This document shows positions 41,313 to 56,301 of a DNA stretch of 64,000 nt, one piece after another. Every line of letters starts with the position of its first letter. The stretch's first letter is position 1. The DNA comes from Candidatus Bacteroides merdipullorum. Its GTDB lineage: Bacteria > Bacteroidota > Bacteroidia > Bacteroidales > Bacteroidaceae. Under the pieces are notes generated by a model. It was not told where the DNA came from. It ran no database searches and saw nothing but the letters and a program-made list of their open reading frames with translations. The DNA lies in contig DXCK01000113.1 of assembly GCA_019116045.1 (NCBI GenBank), positions 1 through 64,000 on the forward strand. Reading direction: 5' to 3'. The position numbers and the translations under genes were made by a program.

Positions 41313-41374
41313 TTCTGTGTTAAAGAAACAGAAAAGATGAGCCTTGTCCGGTTACAACTTATTCTTTCATTTCC

Positions 41375-41382
41375 TACCTTTG
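41375..41382 (+). promoter_or_regulatory. -7 box before the 31-aa ORF and tolC pseudogene
   Basis: TACCTTTG, exact consensus, 20 bp before the ATG at 41403. The start would be near 41388. Confidence 0.65.
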
Positions 41383-41402: not shown

Positions 41403-41498
41403 ATGAGCCGTATGAAAGAATCATCTTACAGCAAGTCTGCTATCTACAAGAACAAGATTCACTTCTTCCATGCCTGGGGTGCGTGCGCTCAGATTTAA
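41403..41498 (+). CDS. 31-aa small ORF, possible leader peptide
   Basis: ATG to TAA, 31 residues, beginning MSRMKESSYSKS and ending NKIHFFHAWGACAQI. It has a consensus -7 box 20 bp upstream and precedes the tolC remnant by 100 bp. The peptide is polar and Ser/Lys-rich at the start and aromatic and His-rich at the end, with one Trp and one Cys just before the stop; there is no signal peptide or membrane helix. I do not recognise it. The position and the distinctive C-terminal end are compatible with a regulatory leader or arrest peptide for the efflux operon that once followed, but a free small protein is equally possible. The 41499-41598 gap also holds a small GCTTTC/GAAAGC hairpin. Confidence 0.5.
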   Translation: MSRMKESSYSKSAIYKNKIHFFHAWGACAQI

Positions 41499-41598
41499 AA
41501 GTCCCTCTTCCATTCCTGCCACATTCCATTGATTGTCGCGGGGCTTTCGGCGGAAAGCTTGTGTACAACAGTATCTAATTCTTAATCATTATTTTAGT

Positions 41599-42488
41599 AT
41601 GAGCAAAAGAAACAGGCTCATAGTGCTGTGTAGTGCGGCACTGTGCAGCTACTACATGTATGCCCAACAACGTACGATGGGCATGGAAGAGATGTTTCGC
41701 CTGGCTGATGCCAACAGTAAGAGCATACAGGCTTACAAGACAGGCAAGGAGGCTGCCGACGAAGCCCTGAAAGCGGCCAAGGCACAACGCTTGCCCGACA
41801 TTACGGCCTCGGTGTCGGCTTCTTACCTGGGCGACGGGCGCTTGTGGGACAGGGATTTCGGTCATGGAGTCCGTATCGACATGCCTCACTTCGGCAATAA
41901 CCTGGTCATAGAGGCTCGGCAGGTGGTTTATGCGGGCGGAGCCATCAGCAGTGGTATCGGGCTGGCCGAGCTGGGACGTGAACTGGCCGAGCTGGACTGG
42001 CAGAAAAACCGCTAGGAAGTGCGCTTCTTGTTGGCGGCTATTATTTGGAACTCTACAAGCTGGATAACCAGAAGAAGGTGGTGCGGCATAATCTGCAACT
42101 GACCGAACGCGTCATAGACAACGTCAGGGCCCGGCATGAGCAGGGTACTGCCCTGAAAAACGACATCACCCGCTACGAGTTGCAACGGGAGACGCTGAAG
42201 CTGCAGTTAGCACAGATTGCGGATGCGCGCCAGATTGTGAACCATCAACTGGTGACCACGCTGCACCTGCCGGCCGGTACCGACATTTGCCCGGACACCA
42301 CGTTGCTGAACAAAGAGGTGCAGACGTTGGCGGAAGAGGACTGGCAGAAGCTGGCCACGCGGACGCATCTGGGCCTGCGGCAGTCGGTGGCGTTGCTGCT
42401 GCTGTTGCTGCTGTATGACGCGCCGGTGCGGCGGAGTCTGAAGCTGATGCCGCTGTGGACGCGCGTGCGCCGCGAGGCTGAGGGGTAA
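41599..42488 (+). pseudogene. Decayed TolC-family outer-membrane efflux protein
   Basis: The first part (41599-42015) begins with a signal peptide (MSKRNRLIVLCSAALCSYYMYAQ in pieces) and reads as a TolC/OEP protein: EMFRLADANSKSIQAYKTGKEAADEALKAAKAQRLPDI. It ends at an in-frame TAG (42013-42015) where the family usually has another residue (DWQKNR-stop-EVRF). The sequence then continues in a different frame from about 42024 (YYLELYKLDNQKKVV through THLGLRQS), so a frameshift follows the nonsense codon. After LGLRQS the homology stops, and a CTG-rich tail leads to a stop at 42488, so roughly the C-terminal half is gone. The membrane-fusion and RND pump genes that normally accompany such a gene are absent. 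This is a dead remnant of an efflux operon. Confidence 0.85.
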
Positions 42489-43044: not shown

Positions 43045-43096
43045 AGTGTAATGATTTATTATCATCGCCGGCGGCCGTCCCTGGCATCCTCCCCAC

Positions 43097-43162
43097 CTTT
43101 TGTGGGAAAAGGTGGGGACTTTTGTAGGAAAAGGTGGGGAGTTTTGTGGGAAAAGGTGGGGA
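43097..43162. repeat. Three tandem 22-bp units in the HU-like gene leader
   Basis: Units at 43097-43118, 43119-43140 and 43141-43162 read CTTTTGTGGGAAAAGGTGGG followed by GA, with one difference in each of units 2 and 3. A partial fourth copy follows on the right (CTTTTCC). The array lies between the HU-like gene promoter (43262-43269) and its ATG, so it is part of a leader of about 210 nt. Confidence 0.9.
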
Positions 43163-43261
43163 CTTTTCCTCTCCCCCTCCACAACCCCTTGTAGGGCCGT
43201 CGCCGGTTCAGATAGGTTATGTAATAAAGTTTGAATCTCTGGCCCCCGCAGGGACCTGTCG

Positions 43262-49961: not shown

Positions 49962-50006
49962 CCTACATATTATTTACATACAGTAACTTCATTAAAACAG
50001 CATAGG

Positions 50007-52445
50007 ATGAAAGTAATGAAATTCGGCGGAACGTCGGTAGGTTCCGTGGAGAGCATATTGAGTGTGAAACGCATTGTCGAGGCGGAAGCCGGTCGTGAAC
50101 CGGTCATCGTAGTGGTGTCGGCGCTTGGCGGCATTACGGACAAGTTGATAAAGACCTCGCGCATGGCGGCGGCAGGCGATGCGGCGTATGAGGACGAGTT
50201 CCGCGAAATCGTGAGCCGGCACGTGGAGATGGTGAAGCGGGTGATTCCAGAGTTTGACGCGCAGATGACCATGCAGCGCCGGGTGGGGGAGTTGCTCAAT
50301 GAACTGAAGGATATCTTCCAGGGCATCTATCTCATCAAAGACCTGTCGCAGAAGACGTCGGACACGATTGTGAGCTACGGCGAACGCCTTTCGTCCATCA
50401 TTGCCGCCCAACTGACGGGGGCGCGGTGGTATGACTCGCGCAGCTTCATCAAGACGGAGAAGAAGTTTTCGAAGCATGTGTTGGACACGGAGTTGACGAA
50501 CCGGCTGGTGCGCGAGACCTTCAGTGAACTGCCTCCGCTGGTGCTGGTGCCGGGCTTCATTGCCACAGACAAGGACACGGGTGAAGTGACCAACCTGGGT
50601 CGGGGCGGGTCGGACTACACGGCGGCAATCATCGCGGCGGCGCTGGATGCGGACAGCCTGGAGATTTGGACGGACGTGGACGGATTCATGACGGCCGACC
50701 CCAGGGTCATCTCTACGGCCTATACCATCAATGAACTGAGTTACGTGGAGGCGACGGAGTTGTGCAACTTCGGCGCGAAGGTGGTCTATCCGCCGACAAT
50801 CTATCCCGTGTGCCACAAGAACATACCTATCCTTATCAAAAACACCTTTAACCCGGCGGGAGCGGGAACGGTCATCAAGCAGACCGTGAGCAGTCCGCAG
50901 GGCAAAGCCATCAAGGGCATCTCATCCATCAACGATACGAGCCTCATCACGGTGCAGGGCCTGGGCATGGTGGGGGTGATTGGCGTGAACTACCGCATCT
51001 TCAAGGCTCTGGCGAAGAATGGCATCAGCGTCTTCCTGGTGTCGCAGGCGTCGTCGGAGAACTCTACGTCCATCGGTGTGCGCAATGCCGACGCTGACCT
51101 GGCGTGCAGTGTGCTGACGGAGGAGTTTGCCAAGGAGATTGAGATGGGCGAGATATCGCCCATGCAGGTGGAGCGCGACTTGGCCACGGTGGCCATCGTG
51201 GGCGAGAACATGAAGCATACGCCGGGCATCGCGGGCAAGCTGTTCGGCACGCTGGGGCGGAACGGCATCAACGTCATTGCCTGCGCACAGGGGGCGAGCG
51301 AGACCAATATTTCGTTTGTGGTGGACAGCAGGTATCTGCGCAAGTCGCTCAACGTCATCCACGACTCGTTCTTCCTGTCCGAATACCAGGTGCTGAACCT
51401 CTTCATCTGCGGCATCGGCACGGTGGGTGGCAAGCTCATCGAGCAGATTCGTAGCCAGCGGCAGCGGCTGATGCAGGAAAACGGCCTGCAACTGAACGTG
51501 GTGGGCATTGCCGACGCCTCGCGCTCGATGTTCAGCCGTGAGGGCTTCGATCTGTCACGTTTCCGCGAGGAGCTGAAGGAGAAGGGGCAGGAGAGCGACA
51601 CGCAGCGCCTGCGCGACGGCGTCATTGGCATGAACATATTCAACAGCGTCTTCGTCGACTGCACGGCCAGCCCCGACGTGGCGGGCATCTACGAGGAGTT
51701 GTTGCGGCACAACATCTCCGTCGTGGCGGCCAACAAGATTGCCGCATCCAGCGAGTACGAGAATTACCTCCGCCTGAAGCAGACGGCGCGTCAGCGGGGT
51801 GTGAAGTACCTGTTCGAGACCAACGTGGGTGCGGGCCTGCCCATCATCAACACCATCAACGACCTTATCCACAGCGGCGACAAGATTCTGAAGATTGAGG
51901 CCGTGCTGAGCGGCACGCTGAACTACATCTTCAACCAGCTCAGCGCCGACGTGCCTTTCAGCCAGACCATACGCATGGCGCAGCAGGAGCGCTACTCCGA
52001 GCCCGACCCGCGCATCGACCTCAGCGGCAAGGACGTCATCCGCAAGCTCGTCATCCTGGCGCGCGAGGCGGGCTACCGCATCGAGCAGGGCGACGTGGAG
52101 CGGCACCTCTTCGTGCCCGACGACTTCTTCGAGGGGTCGCTGGACGACTTCTGGCGCAAGGTGCCCTCGCTGGACGCCGACTTCGAGGCGCGCCGCCGGC
52201 GGCTGGAGGCCGAGCACAAGCACTGGCGCTTCGTGGCGCGGCTGGACGGCGGACGGGCGTCGGTGGGACTGATGGAGGTGGCCCCCGGGCATCCGTTCTA
52301 CGGGCTGGAGGGCAGCAACAACATCATCCTGCTGACCACCGAGCGCTACCGCGAGTACCCGATGATGATTCAGGGCTACGGCGCGGGAGCCGACGTGACC
52401 GCCGCGGGCGTCTTTGCCGACATCATGAGCATTGCCAATGTCTGA
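50007..52445 (+). CDS. thrA: Bifunctional aspartokinase / homoserine dehydrogenase
   Basis: An 812-aa fusion enzyme for steps 1 and 3 of threonine synthesis. The ATG at 50007 gives MKVMKFGGTSVGS, the universal aspartokinase start; the frame is open upstream but that part is leader. Kinase domain about 1-290 (VVVSALGGITDKL; YGERLSS; WTDVDGFMTADPRVI), two ACT domains about 310-455 (ITVQGLGMVGVIGVNYRIF; VAIVGENMKHTPGIAGKLF), and homoserine dehydrogenase from about 465 (NLFICGIGTVGGKLIEQI; ETNVGAGLPIINTINDLI; VLSGTLNYIFNQL; GKDVIRKLVILARE). Threonine feedback through the ACT domains is expected from the family. First gene of the operon with the homoserine kinase and thrC genes. GC-rich codon use. 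Confidence 0.98.
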   Translation: MKVMKFGGTSVGSVESILSVKRIVEAEAGREPVIVVVSALGGITDKLIKTSRMAAAGDAAYEDEFREIVSRHVEMVKRVIPEFDAQMTMQRRVGELLNELKDIFQGIYLIKDLSQKTSDTIVSYGERLSSIIAAQLTGARWYDSRSFIKTEKKFSKHVLDTELTNRLVRETFSELPPLVLVPGFIATDKDTGEVTNLGRGGSDYTAAIIAAALDADSLEIWTDVDGFMTADPRVISTAYTINELSYVEATELCNFGAKVVYPPTIYPVCHKNIPILIKNTFNPAGAGTVIKQTVSSPQGKAIKGISSINDTSLITVQGLGMVGVIGVNYRIFKALAKNGISVFLVSQASSENSTSIGVRNADADLACSVLTEEFAKEIEMGEISPMQVERDLATVAIVGENMKHTPGIAGKLFGTLGRNGINVIACAQGASETNISFVVDSRYLRKSLNVIHDSFFLSEYQVLNLFICGIGTVGGKLIEQIRSQRQRLMQENGLQLNVVGIADASRSMFSREGFDLSRFREELKEKGQESDTQRLRDGVIGMNIFNSVFVDCTASPDVAGIYEELLRHNISVVAANKIAASSEYENYLRLKQTARQRGVKYLFETNVGAGLPIINTINDLIHSGDKILKIEAVLSGTLNYIFNQLSADVPFSQTIRMAQQERYSEPDPRIDLSGKDVIRKLVILAREAGYRIEQGDVERHLFVPDDFFEGSLDDFWRKVPSLDADFEARRRRLEAEHKHWRFVARLDGGRASVGLMEVAPGHPFYGLEGSNNIILLTTERYREYPMMIQGYGAGADVTAAGVFADIMSIANV

Positions 52446-52576
52446 CCCGACGCTGCCGGAAATGCGCCCCGACGCCGCTAAAAACGCGCCCTGACGCGGT
52501 TAAAAATGCGACCCGACGCATTTTCAACGCCGACCCGACGCGGTTGTAAACGCGACCCGACGTATTTTCAACGCCG
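52445..52576. repeat. Six degenerate 22-bp tandem units between thrA and the kinase gene
   Basis: Units start at 52445, 52467, 52489, 52511, 52533 and 52555. The common form is ACCCGACGCGGTTAAAAA then CGCG; alternate units (4 and 6) share GCATTTTCAACGCCG-like sequence, suggesting a 44-bp higher-order pair. A partial unit follows (ACGGGTCGCAGTT). The array begins on the last base of the thrA stop codon and fills most of the 182-bp gap. Confidence 0.88.
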
Positions 52577-52627
52577 ACGGGTCGCAGTTCAGACCCCCAA
52601 AGTATAACCCTAAAAACAAGAAGCGAT

Positions 52628-53947
52628 ATGAAACACATTATTATATTAGGGGACGGCATGGCCGACCATCCCGTCCCCTCGCTGGGCGGGCGGACGCTGC
52701 TCCAGGACGCTCGTACCCCGTGGATGGATCTGCTGGCGCGCCTGGGGCGCAACGGGCGGCTCGTCACCGTCGCCCCCGGCTTCCACCCCGGCAGCGAAGT
52801 GGCCAACATGTCCGTGCTGGGCTATGACCTGCCCACCGTCTACGAAGGCCGCGGCCCGCTCGAGGCGGCCAGCATCGGCGTCGACCTCGCGCCCGGCGAC
52901 ATGGCCATGCGTTGCAACCTGGTCTGCCTCGAGGGCGACCTGCTGAAGAACCACTCCGCCGGGCACATCACCACGGAGGAGGCCGACACGCTCATCCGCT
53001 TCCTGCAAGAACGGCTGGGCGACGAGCGCGTCCACTTCTACACCGGCGTGCAATACCGCCACCTGCTGGTTATCCGCGGGGGCGAAAAGCGCCTGGACTG
53101 CACGCCGCCGCACGACGTGCCCCTGCAGCCCTGGCGGCCGCTGCTGCCTAAGGCAGCTACGAGCGAAGAGCTACAAGCGACGAGCTACAAGCTACGAGCT
53201 ACAAGTGGTGACGGAGATACGGACGGACTCGTAGCTCGTAGCTCGTCACTCGTAGCTAATACCCCGTCACTCACAGCTAAAGATACCGCCGACCTGCTCG
53301 ACACGCTCATCCTACGCTCGCAAGACCTGCTGCGCGACCATCCGCTGAACAAGCAACGCATCGCCCAAGGCAAAGACCCCGCCAACAGCATCTGGCCCTG
53401 GAGCCCCGGCTACCGTCCGCAGATGGAGCCCTTCTCCGCCCGCTTCCCCCAGGTGAGGAGCGGGGCGGTCATCACCGCCGTCGACCTCATCCGCGGCATC
53501 GGGCGCTATGCCGGACTGCGGCGCATCGACGTGCCCGGCGCCACCGGACTCTATGACACCGATTACGAGGGCAAGGTCCGCGCCGCTCTCGACGCCCTGC
53601 GCACCGACGACTTCGTCTACCTGCACATCGAGGCCAGCGATGAGGCCGGCCACGAGGGGGACATCGCCCTGAAACGCCGGACCATCGAAGACCTCGACCG
53701 CCGTGTCGTCGGCCCCGTCTACGAGGCTGTGAAGGATTGGCCCGAGCCCGTGGCCATCGCTGTCCTGCCCGACCATCCCACGCCCTGCGAGGTGCGCACC
53801 CACACGGCCGAGCCCGTGCCCTTCCTTGTCTGGCATCCCGGCATCGAGCCCGACGCCGTGCAGACCTTCGACGAGGTGGCCGCCTGCGAGGGTTCGTATG
53901 GCCTGCTGAAAGAAGACCAATTCATTAACACATTCATGAACGCTTAG
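52628..53947 (+). CDS. Proposed homoserine kinase (ApgM-like phosphoglycerate mutase family)
   Basis: A 439-aa protein of the alkaline-phosphatase superfamily, often annotated as cofactor-independent phosphoglycerate mutase. Metal-site sequence is present: ILGDGMADHP at the start, SEVANMSVLGYD, and the C-terminal HIEASDEAGHEGD and VLPDHPTPC. The subfamily that sits between thrA and thrC has been proposed to be the missing homoserine kinase, and this gene is exactly there with no thrB in sight, so that role is preferred. The gene is odd: residues about 176-217 (ATSEELQATSYKLRATSG and beyond) are encoded by an inserted palindromic repeat between LLPKA and DTADLLDTLILRS, where relatives have only a short linker. 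The frame is intact, so the protein is probably still active with a surface loop. Confidence 0.85.
   Translation: MKHIIILGDGMADHPVPSLGGRTLLQDARTPWMDLLARLGRNGRLVTVAPGFHPGSEVANMSVLGYDLPTVYEGRGPLEAASIGVDLAPGDMAMRCNLVCLEGDLLKNHSAGHITTEEADTLIRFLQERLGDERVHFYTGVQYRHLLVIRGGEKRLDCTPPHDVPLQPWRPLLPKAATSEELQATSYKLRATSGDGDTDGLVARSSSLVANTPSLTAKDTADLLDTLILRSQDLLRDHPLNKQRIAQGKDPANSIWPWSPGYRPQMEPFSARFPQVRSGAVITAVDLIRGIGRYAGLRRIDVPGATGLYDTDYEGKVRAALDALRTDDFVYLHIEASDEAGHEGDIALKRRTIEDLDRRVVGPVYEAVKDWPEPVAIAVLPDHPTPCEVRTHTAEPVPFLVWHPGIEPDAVQTFDEVAACEGSYGLLKEDQFINTFMNA
53155..53278. repeat. Palindromic repeat element inserted in frame in the kinase gene
   Basis: The left half has five GAGCTAC or AGCTAC(G/A)AG units; the right half has four CTCGTAGCT or CTCGTCACT units in the opposite sense. 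The core arms 53169-53198 and 53228-53257 are complementary at 27 of 30 positions, with a 29-nt loop. The element has no stop codon in the frame of the gene and adds about 42 residues. It resembles the simple palindromic elements of Bacteroidetes intergenic regions, but here it is inside a coding sequence. Confidence 0.85.
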
Positions 53948-53951
53948 ACTT

Positions 53952-55256
53952 ATGAACTATTACAGCACCAACCACCAGTCGCCCGCCGCCACCCTTCAGG
54001 AAGCCGTGGTGCGCGGACTCGCCCCCGACAAGGGCCTCTATATGCCGGAGCATATCCGTCCGCTCCCGCCCGAGTTCTACGAACAGATTGACCGCATGAC
54101 CCTGCCCGACATCGCCTGCCGCGTGGCCGACGCCTTCTTTGGCGACGACATCCCCAGCGATACGCTGCACGAACTGGTGCGCGACACGATGAGCTTCGAC
54201 ATACCGCTCGTGCCCGTCGCTGACCACATCCACGCGCTCGAGCTCTTCCACGGCCCCACGCTGGCCTTCAAAGACGTGGGCGCCCGCTTCATGGCCCGCC
54301 TGTTGGGCTACTTCATCCGCCGCGAGGGTGCGGGCGAGGTCAATGTCCTCGTGGCCACGTCGGGCGACACGGGCAGTGCCGTGGCCAACGGCTTCTTGGG
54401 CGTGGAGGGCATCCGCGTCTACGTGCTCTACCCCAAGGGCAAGGTCAGCGAGATACAGGAGAAGCAGTTCACCACCCTGGGCCGCAACATTACGGCCATC
54501 GAAGTGGACGGCACCTTCGACGATTGCCAGGCCTTGGTGAAGGACGCCTTCATGGATGCCGACCTCAACGCCCACATGCGCCTGACCAGTGCCAACAGCA
54601 TCAACGTGGCACGCTTCCTGCCGCAGTCGTTCTACTACTTCCATGCCTACGCCCAGTTGAAGCGCGCCGGTCGTGCCGACGGCGGGGTGGTGGTGTGCGT
54701 GCCCAGCGGCAACTTCGGCAACATCACCGCAGGGCTGTTTGCCGCCCGCATGGGCCTGCCCGTCAGCCGCTTCATTGCCGCCAACAACCGCAACGACATC
54801 TTCTATCAGTACCTGCGCACGGGTGTCTATTCGCCCCGTCCCAGCATCGCCACCATCGCCAACGCCATGGACGTGGGCGCGCCCAGCAATTTCGCCCGCA
54901 TCCTGGCCCTCTACGACGGTAGCCACGACGCCATCTCGGCCGACATCAGCGGTGCCACGTACACCGACGAGCAGATTGCCGACACCGTGCGCGCCACGTG
55001 GCAGCAGCACCGCTATCTGCTCGACCCGCACGGCGCCTGCGGCTACCGTGCTTTGCAGGAGGGGCTACGTCCCGGCGAGACGGGCATCTTTCTGGAGACC
55101 GCCCATCCGGCCAAGTTCAAGGACACGGTGGAGCGCATCATCGGGCAGCCCGTCGACATCCCCGCCAAGCTCCGCGCTTTCATGCAGGGCACCAAGCAGA
55201 GCGTGCCGATGCCGAAGGACTTCCCCGCCTTCAAGGCCTATCTGATGGGGCAGTGA
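53952..55256 (+). CDS. thrC: Threonine synthase
   Basis: A 434-aa PLP enzyme that converts O-phosphohomoserine to threonine, the last step of the pathway. It begins with MNYYSTNHQSPAATLQEAVVRGLAPDKGLYMPE, the usual ThrC N-terminus (in pieces), has the PLP lysine Lys107 in HGPTLAFKDVGARF, the phosphate-binding VATSGDTGSAVANGF and the later VPSGNFGNITAGL. Long (class II, bacterial) type. It starts 4 bp after the kinase stop codon, so the two are tightly coupled. GC-rich codon use as in the rest of the operon. Confidence 0.98.
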   Translation: MNYYSTNHQSPAATLQEAVVRGLAPDKGLYMPEHIRPLPPEFYEQIDRMTLPDIACRVADAFFGDDIPSDTLHELVRDTMSFDIPLVPVADHIHALELFHGPTLAFKDVGARFMARLLGYFIRREGAGEVNVLVATSGDTGSAVANGFLGVEGIRVYVLYPKGKVSEIQEKQFTTLGRNITAIEVDGTFDDCQALVKDAFMDADLNAHMRLTSANSINVARFLPQSFYYFHAYAQLKRAGRADGGVVVCVPSGNFGNITAGLFAARMGLPVSRFIAANNRNDIFYQYLRTGVYSPRPSIATIANAMDVGAPSNFARILALYDGSHDAISADISGATYTDEQIADTVRATWQQHRYLLDPHGACGYRALQEGLRPGETGIFLETAHPAKFKDTVERIIGQPVDIPAKLRAFMQGTKQSVPMPKDFPAFKAYLMGQ

Positions 55257-55270
55257 TGGCGGATTTATTA

Positions 55271-55390
55271 CCCAGCAGGGGCGCAGGGTTACTATCCAGC
55301 AGGGGCGCAGGGTTACTACCCAGCGGGGGTGCAGGGTTACGCCCCAGCGGGGGTGCAGGGTTATGCCCCTGCGGGGGCGCTGGATAAACG
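55271..55390. repeat. Five 24-bp tandem units between thrC and mscS
   Basis: Units start at 55271, 55295, 55319, 55343 and 55367; the first four are nearly identical (CCCAGCAGGGGCGCAGGGTT plus 4 nt, or CCCAGCGGGGGTGCAGGGTT), and the fifth is degenerate (CCCTGCGGGGGCGCTGGATA). CCCAGC and GCTGGG-type halves could also pair between units. Confidence 0.92.
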
Positions 55391-55416
55391 GAATCAATAG
55401 GAACCAATAAACAACA

Positions 55417-56301
55417 ATGAATCATATGTATCTGACATCCTTTTTACTGACGGCGGCCGCACCCGCCCAGGCCGCACAAGACGGGGCTGACAAAGTGCAA
55501 CAAGTCATACAGCACCTCATAGACGGCGGCGTCGACATCGGCGGGCGCATCCTGGGGGCGCTGGTCATCTTCCTCATCGGGCGTTTCCTCATCTCCTTCC
55601 TCAACAAACTGGTGCGGCGCATCCTGGAGCGGCGCAAGGTCGATGCCGGCATCCGCAGCTTCGTGGAGAGCCTGGTGAACATCCTGCTGATGGTACTGCT
55701 CATCGTGGCCATCGTGGACAAGCTGGGCATCGAGACCACCTCCTTCGCCGCCCTGCTGGCTTCGGCCGGTGTGGCCGTGGGCATGGCCCTGAGCGGCAAC
55801 CTGCAGAACTTCGCCGGCGGGCTCATCATCCTGCTGTTCCGCCCCTACAAGGTGGGCGACTGGATAGAGTGCCAGGGCGAGAGCGGCTCGGTGAAGGAGA
55901 TACAAATCTTCCACACCATCCTGACCACGGCCGACAACAAGACGGTTTACATCCCCAACGGCTCGGCGTCGAGCGGCGTGGTGGTGAATTACAGCAACGA
56001 GGAAACCCGCCGCGTAGACTGGGTGGTCGGCGTGGAATACGGTGAAGACTATTCCCGGGTGGAGGAGGCGGCACGCCGCATCGTCGCGGCCGACAAACGC
56101 ATCCTCGACACGCCCGCGCCCTTCATCGCCCTGGATGCCCTGGATGCCAGCAGCGTCAATATCCGCATCCGCGTGTGGGTGAAGAACGCCGACTATTGGG
56201 GCGTGTACTACGATGTGCAGCGCGCCATCTACGACGAGTTCAACAAGGCCGGCATCGGCTTCCCCTTCCCGCAACTCACGGTGCATCAGGCCAAGGACTG
56301 A
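55417..56301 (+). CDS. mscS: Small-conductance mechanosensitive channel (MscS family)
   Basis: A 294-aa inner-membrane channel that opens under membrane tension during hypo-osmotic shock. The N-terminus is Ala-rich and signal-like (SFLLTAAAPAQAAQ), followed by three membrane helices at about 45-65, 85-108 and the pore helix TM3 (SFAALLASAGVAVGMALSGNLQNFAGG), then the beta-domain starting at RPYKVGDWIECQGESGSV, with the conserved TADNKTVYIPNGSASSGVVVNYS. The C-terminal alpha/beta domain ends at FPQLTVHQAKD. Length matches E. coli MscS. Separated from thrC by the 24-bp repeat array, so it may be read from the thr transcript or a hidden promoter. Confidence 0.95.
   Translation: MNHMYLTSFLLTAAAPAQAAQDGADKVQQVIQHLIDGGVDIGGRILGALVIFLIGRFLISFLNKLVRRILERRKVDAGIRSFVESLVNILLMVLLIVAIVDKLGIETTSFAALLASAGVAVGMALSGNLQNFAGGLIILLFRPYKVGDWIECQGESGSVKEIQIFHTILTTADNKTVYIPNGSASSGVVVNYSNEETRRVDWVVGVEYGEDYSRVEEAARRIVAADKRILDTPAPFIALDALDASSVNIRIRVWVKNADYWGVYYDVQRAIYDEFNKAGIGFPFPQLTVHQAKD

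Follow-up and report, generated by a model that had tools for sequence, protein, structure and literature searches.

A conserved leader peptide family upstream of tolC-emrA-emrB efflux operons in Bacteroidales, with a probable role in pump control

Arrest of the ribosome at a stop codon is established for the leader peptides TnaC, SpeFL and MsrDL. TnaC leads the tnaCAB operon of E. coli, has L-Trp as its ligand and works together with Rho control, the stalled ribosome shielding a rut site (PMC8429421). SpeFL senses L-ornithine, controls ornithine decarboxylase genes in gamma-proteobacteria and arrests at its stop codon by release factor inhibition (PMC8429421, PMC10314930). MsrDL, the macrolide-sensing leader of the drug-resistance gene msrD, has six residues (MYLIFM), stalls at its stop codon and acts on an intrinsic terminator (PMC10314930). 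Few arrest peptides have been described in Bacteroidota; candidates are the secDF uORFs, which end in NAP-stop or NSP-stop and are tied to protein-localisation genes (PMC10987492). No Bacteroidota arrest peptide controlling drug efflux was found in the literature examined. In Bacteroides thetaiotaomicron, long 5' leaders with short ORFs have been noted (PMC7366714), and Rho is an active termination factor (PMC13269538, PMC10284900).

The leader family described here appears, by analogy of function, to have TnaC, SpeFL and MsrDL as its closest counterparts. No sequence relationship to TnaC was found, and the operon differs from tnaCAB. An additional feature of the present family is the conserved hairpin within tolC, the first structural gene of the operon. 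A profile search of all PDB chains of at least 20 residues returned no TnaC or SpeFL chain, in a search where so short a peptide could be missed. SpeFL, compared by description, resembles the model proposed below in its shortness and its mode of arrest. MsrDL also leads a drug-resistance gene, but has no motif in common with the family. The secDF uORFs likewise have a conserved end abutting the stop, but their motif is a different one and drug efflux is not involved.

The window is the whole 64,000-nt stretch analysed, positions 1 to 64,000 of contig DXCK01000113.1 of Candidatus Bacteroides merdipullorum (GCA_019116045.1). The initial annotation had marked a 31-aa ORF at 41403-41498, with the product MSRMKESSYSKSAIYKNKIHFFHAWGACAQI, about 20 nt past a -7 box and 100 nt ahead of a tolC gene. 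This placement was confirmed, with the tolC remnant starting at 41599, and comparison across genomes identifies the ORF as a real coding sequence. The reported first ATG is at 41403 and a second ATG at 41412. Translation probably starts at the latter, giving 28 aa, because homologues measured from the nearest Met are mostly 24 or 28 aa long. The features of the leader region are as follows.

41351-41356, plus strand, GTTACA, -33 element of the promoter, 24 nt upstream of the -7 box
41375-41382, plus strand, -7 box TACCTTTG of the leader/operon promoter, an exact match to TANNTTTG
41412-41498, plus strand, leader peptide ORF from its likelier start, 28 aa, MKESSYSKSAIYKNKIHFFHAWGACAQI, stop TAA
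41451-41480, plus strand, conserved core NKIHFFHAWG, with exactly five codons between it and the stop
41499-41598, plus strand, spacer from leader stop to tolC start, its first part rich in C, poor in G and rut-like

Homologues were sought at three depths. In a peptide search of 201 family genomes, 13, the window genome included, had a short-frame homologue in the same setting, 55-188 nt 5' of a tolC start; one further weak short-frame match (L015) was without tolC context. A broadened profile matched in 19 of 301 genomes, each match at E < 4e-10 and reaching the last profile position, and the window leader was matched over 41412-41495 at E 2.4e-13. A DNA pattern for NK(I/L/M)HxFHxWG, scanned against 84,980 species genomes, gave 78 loci. 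Approximately 70 of these are leaders, all in Bacteroidales, from Bacteroides, Phocaeicola, Mediterranea, Prevotellaceae, Muribaculaceae, Odoribacter, Butyricimonas, Alistipes and Cryptobacteroides; since the family sequences are related, these counts are not of independent events. Non-leader pattern matches (L082, L095, L112, L113, L133, L135 and L144) were removed, a handful being unrelated chance matches. Three proteins of ~300 aa (L002, L017 and L028), in which YINWxYFFHAWG, a string with a striking likeness to the leader core, occurs close to the N-terminus, were also excluded as long proteins without leader context. The resemblance is probably a coincidence; we take these proteins to resemble the methionine synthase activation domain.

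Pfam and NCBIfam gave no match to the leader peptide, Rfam gave no meaningful match to the leader region, and strings from the family core were absent from the open-access papers searched. The family is unlisted, and within the open-access literature no report of it was found.

Conservation is concentrated at the C-terminal end of the peptide. In 68 of 68 distinct leaders exactly five residues separate the motif NK(I/L/M)HxFHxWG from the stop, which places the stop exactly 15 codons after the N of the motif, a distance left free by the search pattern. The stop codon itself varies (TAG in 33, TAA in 19, TGA in 16), as does the N-terminus in both length and sequence. Diverged leaders in Prevotella-like genomes end in FHKWGRSCQH-stop and FHQWGRENSD-stop with an unchanged FH-to-stop distance, and one diverged leader ends in YHDWGEE-stop with a shorter one. 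The conserved residues stand at a fixed distance from the stop, the putative arrest site. The signs of a non-coding frame named in the initial annotation, lack of any homologue and a non-coding codon pattern, were not seen: homologues were found, and pN/pS at codons left free by the pattern was 0.45 overall, with values of 0.37 for the five-residue tail and 0.72 for the part N-terminal to it. The in-frame value of 0.22 is in part a product of the search pattern itself, and conclusions were not based on it. These substitution patterns indicate that the leader is selected at the amino-acid level.

In intact relatives the gene order is leader, tolC, EmrA-family adaptor and EmrB-like MFS permease. 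The leader is a short, co-oriented ORF directly upstream of the operon in many species, and nearly all leaders at loci with enough sequence lie just 5' of the tolC of a tolC-emrA-emrB operon; at a few loci an intact tolC is not visible, owing to an early contig end or to advanced decay of the operon. Among TolC orthologues with at least 52% identity to the Phocaeicola barnesiae protein, 12 of 13 have the leader. As in EmrAB-TolC multidrug efflux, a TolC-family channel, an EmrA-family adaptor and an EmrB-family MFS permease occur together in one operon. The adaptor and permease matches do not reach the cut-offs that NCBIfam has curated for the two subfamilies, EmrA and EmrB, and the proteins are therefore distant relatives; no regulator gene was seen within the operon. 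The initial annotation had proposed that the peptide be sought ahead of intact tolC-RND operons. Homologues do stand ahead of intact tolC operons, but these are of the EmrAB/MFS type, and an RND pump was rejected. Its suggestion of an arrest or sensor peptide controlling an efflux operon fared better apart from the pump type, being favoured by the family ahead of intact operons, the stop-locked C-terminal motif and the covarying tolC hairpin described below. Comparison leaves the regulatory link to the efflux operon well supported.

The -7 box lies 20-43 nt ahead of the leader ATG in nearly all homologues. In 55 of 69 leader promoters GTYACR precedes the -7 box by exactly 24-25 nt, and this spacing occurs at 69 of 782 TANNTTYG sites overall, leader sites included. 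This element points to an additional, transcriptional layer of control. The window genome has two other GTTACA(18-19)TANNTTTG sites, one of which (L181) lies just 5' of a gene that by eye is AraC-type-regulator-like.

Past the leader stop, the first 60 nt contain 23.6% C and 11.1% G, compared with 19.0% and 18.9% in ordinary upstream regions, and C exceeds G in 64 of 65 family spacers versus 51% of ordinary upstream regions. The region is C-rich and G-poor, as in leaders of the Rho type, a likeness of composition alone.

Two overlapping structures were found at the tolC start.

41599-41621, plus strand, H1, tolC start ATGAGC (41599-41604) complementary to GCTCAT (41616-41621)
41615-41650, plus strand, H2, hairpin inside tolC codons 6-18, arms 41615-41627 and 41637-41650, overlapping H1

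H1 is a perfect 6/6 Watson-Crick match in 49 of 62 homologues, which is reached by 0-5% of the synonymous shuffles of any sequence. Its cells are paired at 97.6% with few changes, and covariation says little on H1 because it varies little. H2 has 13 pairs and spans tolC codons 6-18 or 6-19 across homologues. In 56 aligned sequences, 96.4% of its cells are paired and 9 of the 13 pairs show double-sided changes; 65 compensatory cells were counted against 17.8 +/- 5.8 in shuffled alignments, and none of 500 shuffles was as high. Folding of H2 is also stronger than in shuffles preserving protein and codon usage (mean z -3.6, 62 sequences). Covariation and codon-shuffle controls support the predicted H1 and H2 structures. 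The two share bases, with part of GCUCAU falling in the H2 5' arm, and H2 is usually the preferred structure when the wider region is folded.

Leader and H2 tend to co-occur. No H2 excess was seen in eight TolC relatives without a recognised leader (L156, L160, L167, L168, L172, L173, L175 and L177), and an excess was present at the diverged-leader loci L161, L163, L164 and L169. L162, L165, L171, L174 and L176 have H2 without a leader of the NKIHxFHxWG class; in L162, L165, L171 and L176 no leader is recognised at all, and these four count against the linkage of leader and H2.

Taken together, the ORF is on balance probably a cis-acting regulatory leader peptide of the tolC-emrA-emrB efflux operon, one that would arrest its ribosome at the stop codon and turn the pump on through Rho shielding and the H1/H2 structures. 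The leader would arrest its ribosome at the stop codon in response to a signal, leaving the first part of the C-rich spacer masked by the ribosome. When bare, the spacer would let Rho load and end transcription close to the start of tolC, a place at which H2 could make RNA polymerase pause. H1/H2 switching probably also gates tolC translation, and the net outcome would be a pump expressed when the signal is present. The route from events on the leader to H1/H2 is not evident, because pairing of the leader RNA with the switch arms of tolC shows no excess over synonymous shuffles.

Translational attenuation of the ErmC type, a model independent of Rho in which stalling on the leader directly rearranges the H1/H2 hairpins to expose the tolC start codon, would account for the presence there of two conserved structures that exclude each other. 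We regard it as unlikely: the ErmC type calls for alternate pairing by the leader RNA, and complementarity between leader ORF and switch arms is not conserved, while 52-120 nt usually separate the leader stop from the tolC start, more than a stalled ribosome could span to melt the structures directly. There is a slimmer chance that the leader only supplies translation or reinitiation for tolC, or is an amino-acid-codon attenuator, without specific nascent-peptide arrest. A short ORF close behind the promoter would suit such a role, and leader ORFs can raise downstream translation by reinitiation (PMC4833913); however, the amino-acid motif and its distance to the stop are kept while codons vary, and the leader has no run of codons for one amino acid. 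A small protein acting in trans beside tolC, such as a pump-associated peptide, would explain why the peptide is conserved and why the ORF is still open where the pump is damaged. That reading is slightly less probable again, since the N-terminus varies, conservation is confined to an end locked to the stop, the peptide is linked to a cis RNA structure, and Pfam and NCBIfam hold no match. A chance ORF, suggested by the short length and the lack of Pfam, NCBIfam and Rfam entries, is ruled out for practical purposes by family-wide homology, the substitution pattern and the fixed stop distance.

The operon remnant in the window consists of two parts.

41599-42386, plus strand, tolC pseudogene, codons 1-263 of 436, TAG at 42013-42015, frameshift near 42024, Pfam OEP
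42384-42482, plus strand, emrB C-terminus remnant (codons 490-522), fused to tolC by internal deletion

An internal deletion removed emrA and most of emrB and joined tolC codon 263 to emrB codon 490. What had been annotated as a dead tolC gene is indeed decayed, but is really what the deletion left of the whole operon. The assembly, ~77% complete, yielded no further close copy of emrB. In the window genome the leader and hairpin are intact and the pump is destroyed. In the sister Bacteroides sp. ET71, the leader differs at 1 of 99 nt, the spacer at 11 of 100 and tolC at ~6%, and the operon is damaged differently. The idea that the peptide has a job of its own after decay of the pump was not supported; as the tolC lesions differ between the two genomes, recent pump loss explains the conservation of the leader equally well.

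Operon damage or internal deletions were observed in several lineages (window 41599-42482; L089, L074, L071, L076, L118 and L125). Damaged operons often retain the leader, the tolC start and the emrB end, and many come from MAGs of gut samples, from poultry or elsewhere; with several of the sources metagenome-assembled, some lesions could be assembly errors. As intact motifs were what the scan selected, broken operons are no evidence that leaders persist longer than pumps. Elsewhere in the window, three tandem copies of a unit like GGGAAAAGGTGGGGACTTTT lie at ~43095-43170, upstream of a minus-strand short basic-protein ORF, and GC is 0.59-0.66 at 50001-56000 versus 0.41-0.45 at 16-22 kb and 58-62 kb.

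A second peptide class was seen at L174, where the leader ends in VPFWNYLFD-stop. It is kept in four genomes of one Prevotella-like genus (L186-L189 and L174), with a similar promoter element and a hairpin-bearing tolC start of the same design. The same switch with a different peptide end fits what is expected if the peptide end is the sensor. A GC-rich inverted repeat (e.g. CCACAGCAtcTGCTGTGG) lies just past the stop of these leaders. Further matches to the VPFWNYLFD profile were weak. The peptide MTRHNEKEIFTYYRGGKFSTPIPHTAC, found once before an H2-bearing tolC, was set aside for want of a convincing relative with leader context. Tentatively, and with rather less assurance than for the leader itself, a Bacteroidales-wide family of nascent-peptide sensors may be proposed, with exchangeable C-terminal motifs (NKIHxFHxWGxxxxx-stop and VPFWNYLFD-stop) that would detect drugs or gut metabolites on the ribosome and drive an EmrAB-TolC-type pump via a bistable hairpin covering the start codon of tolC.

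Precise predictions for toeprinting and reporter work follow from the invariant distance to the stop and from the covarying hairpin. With this family, common gut bacteria provide a peptide and an RNA switch that are well defined and open to testing, and the ligand of the leader would reveal the purpose of the pump and what these bacteria sense.
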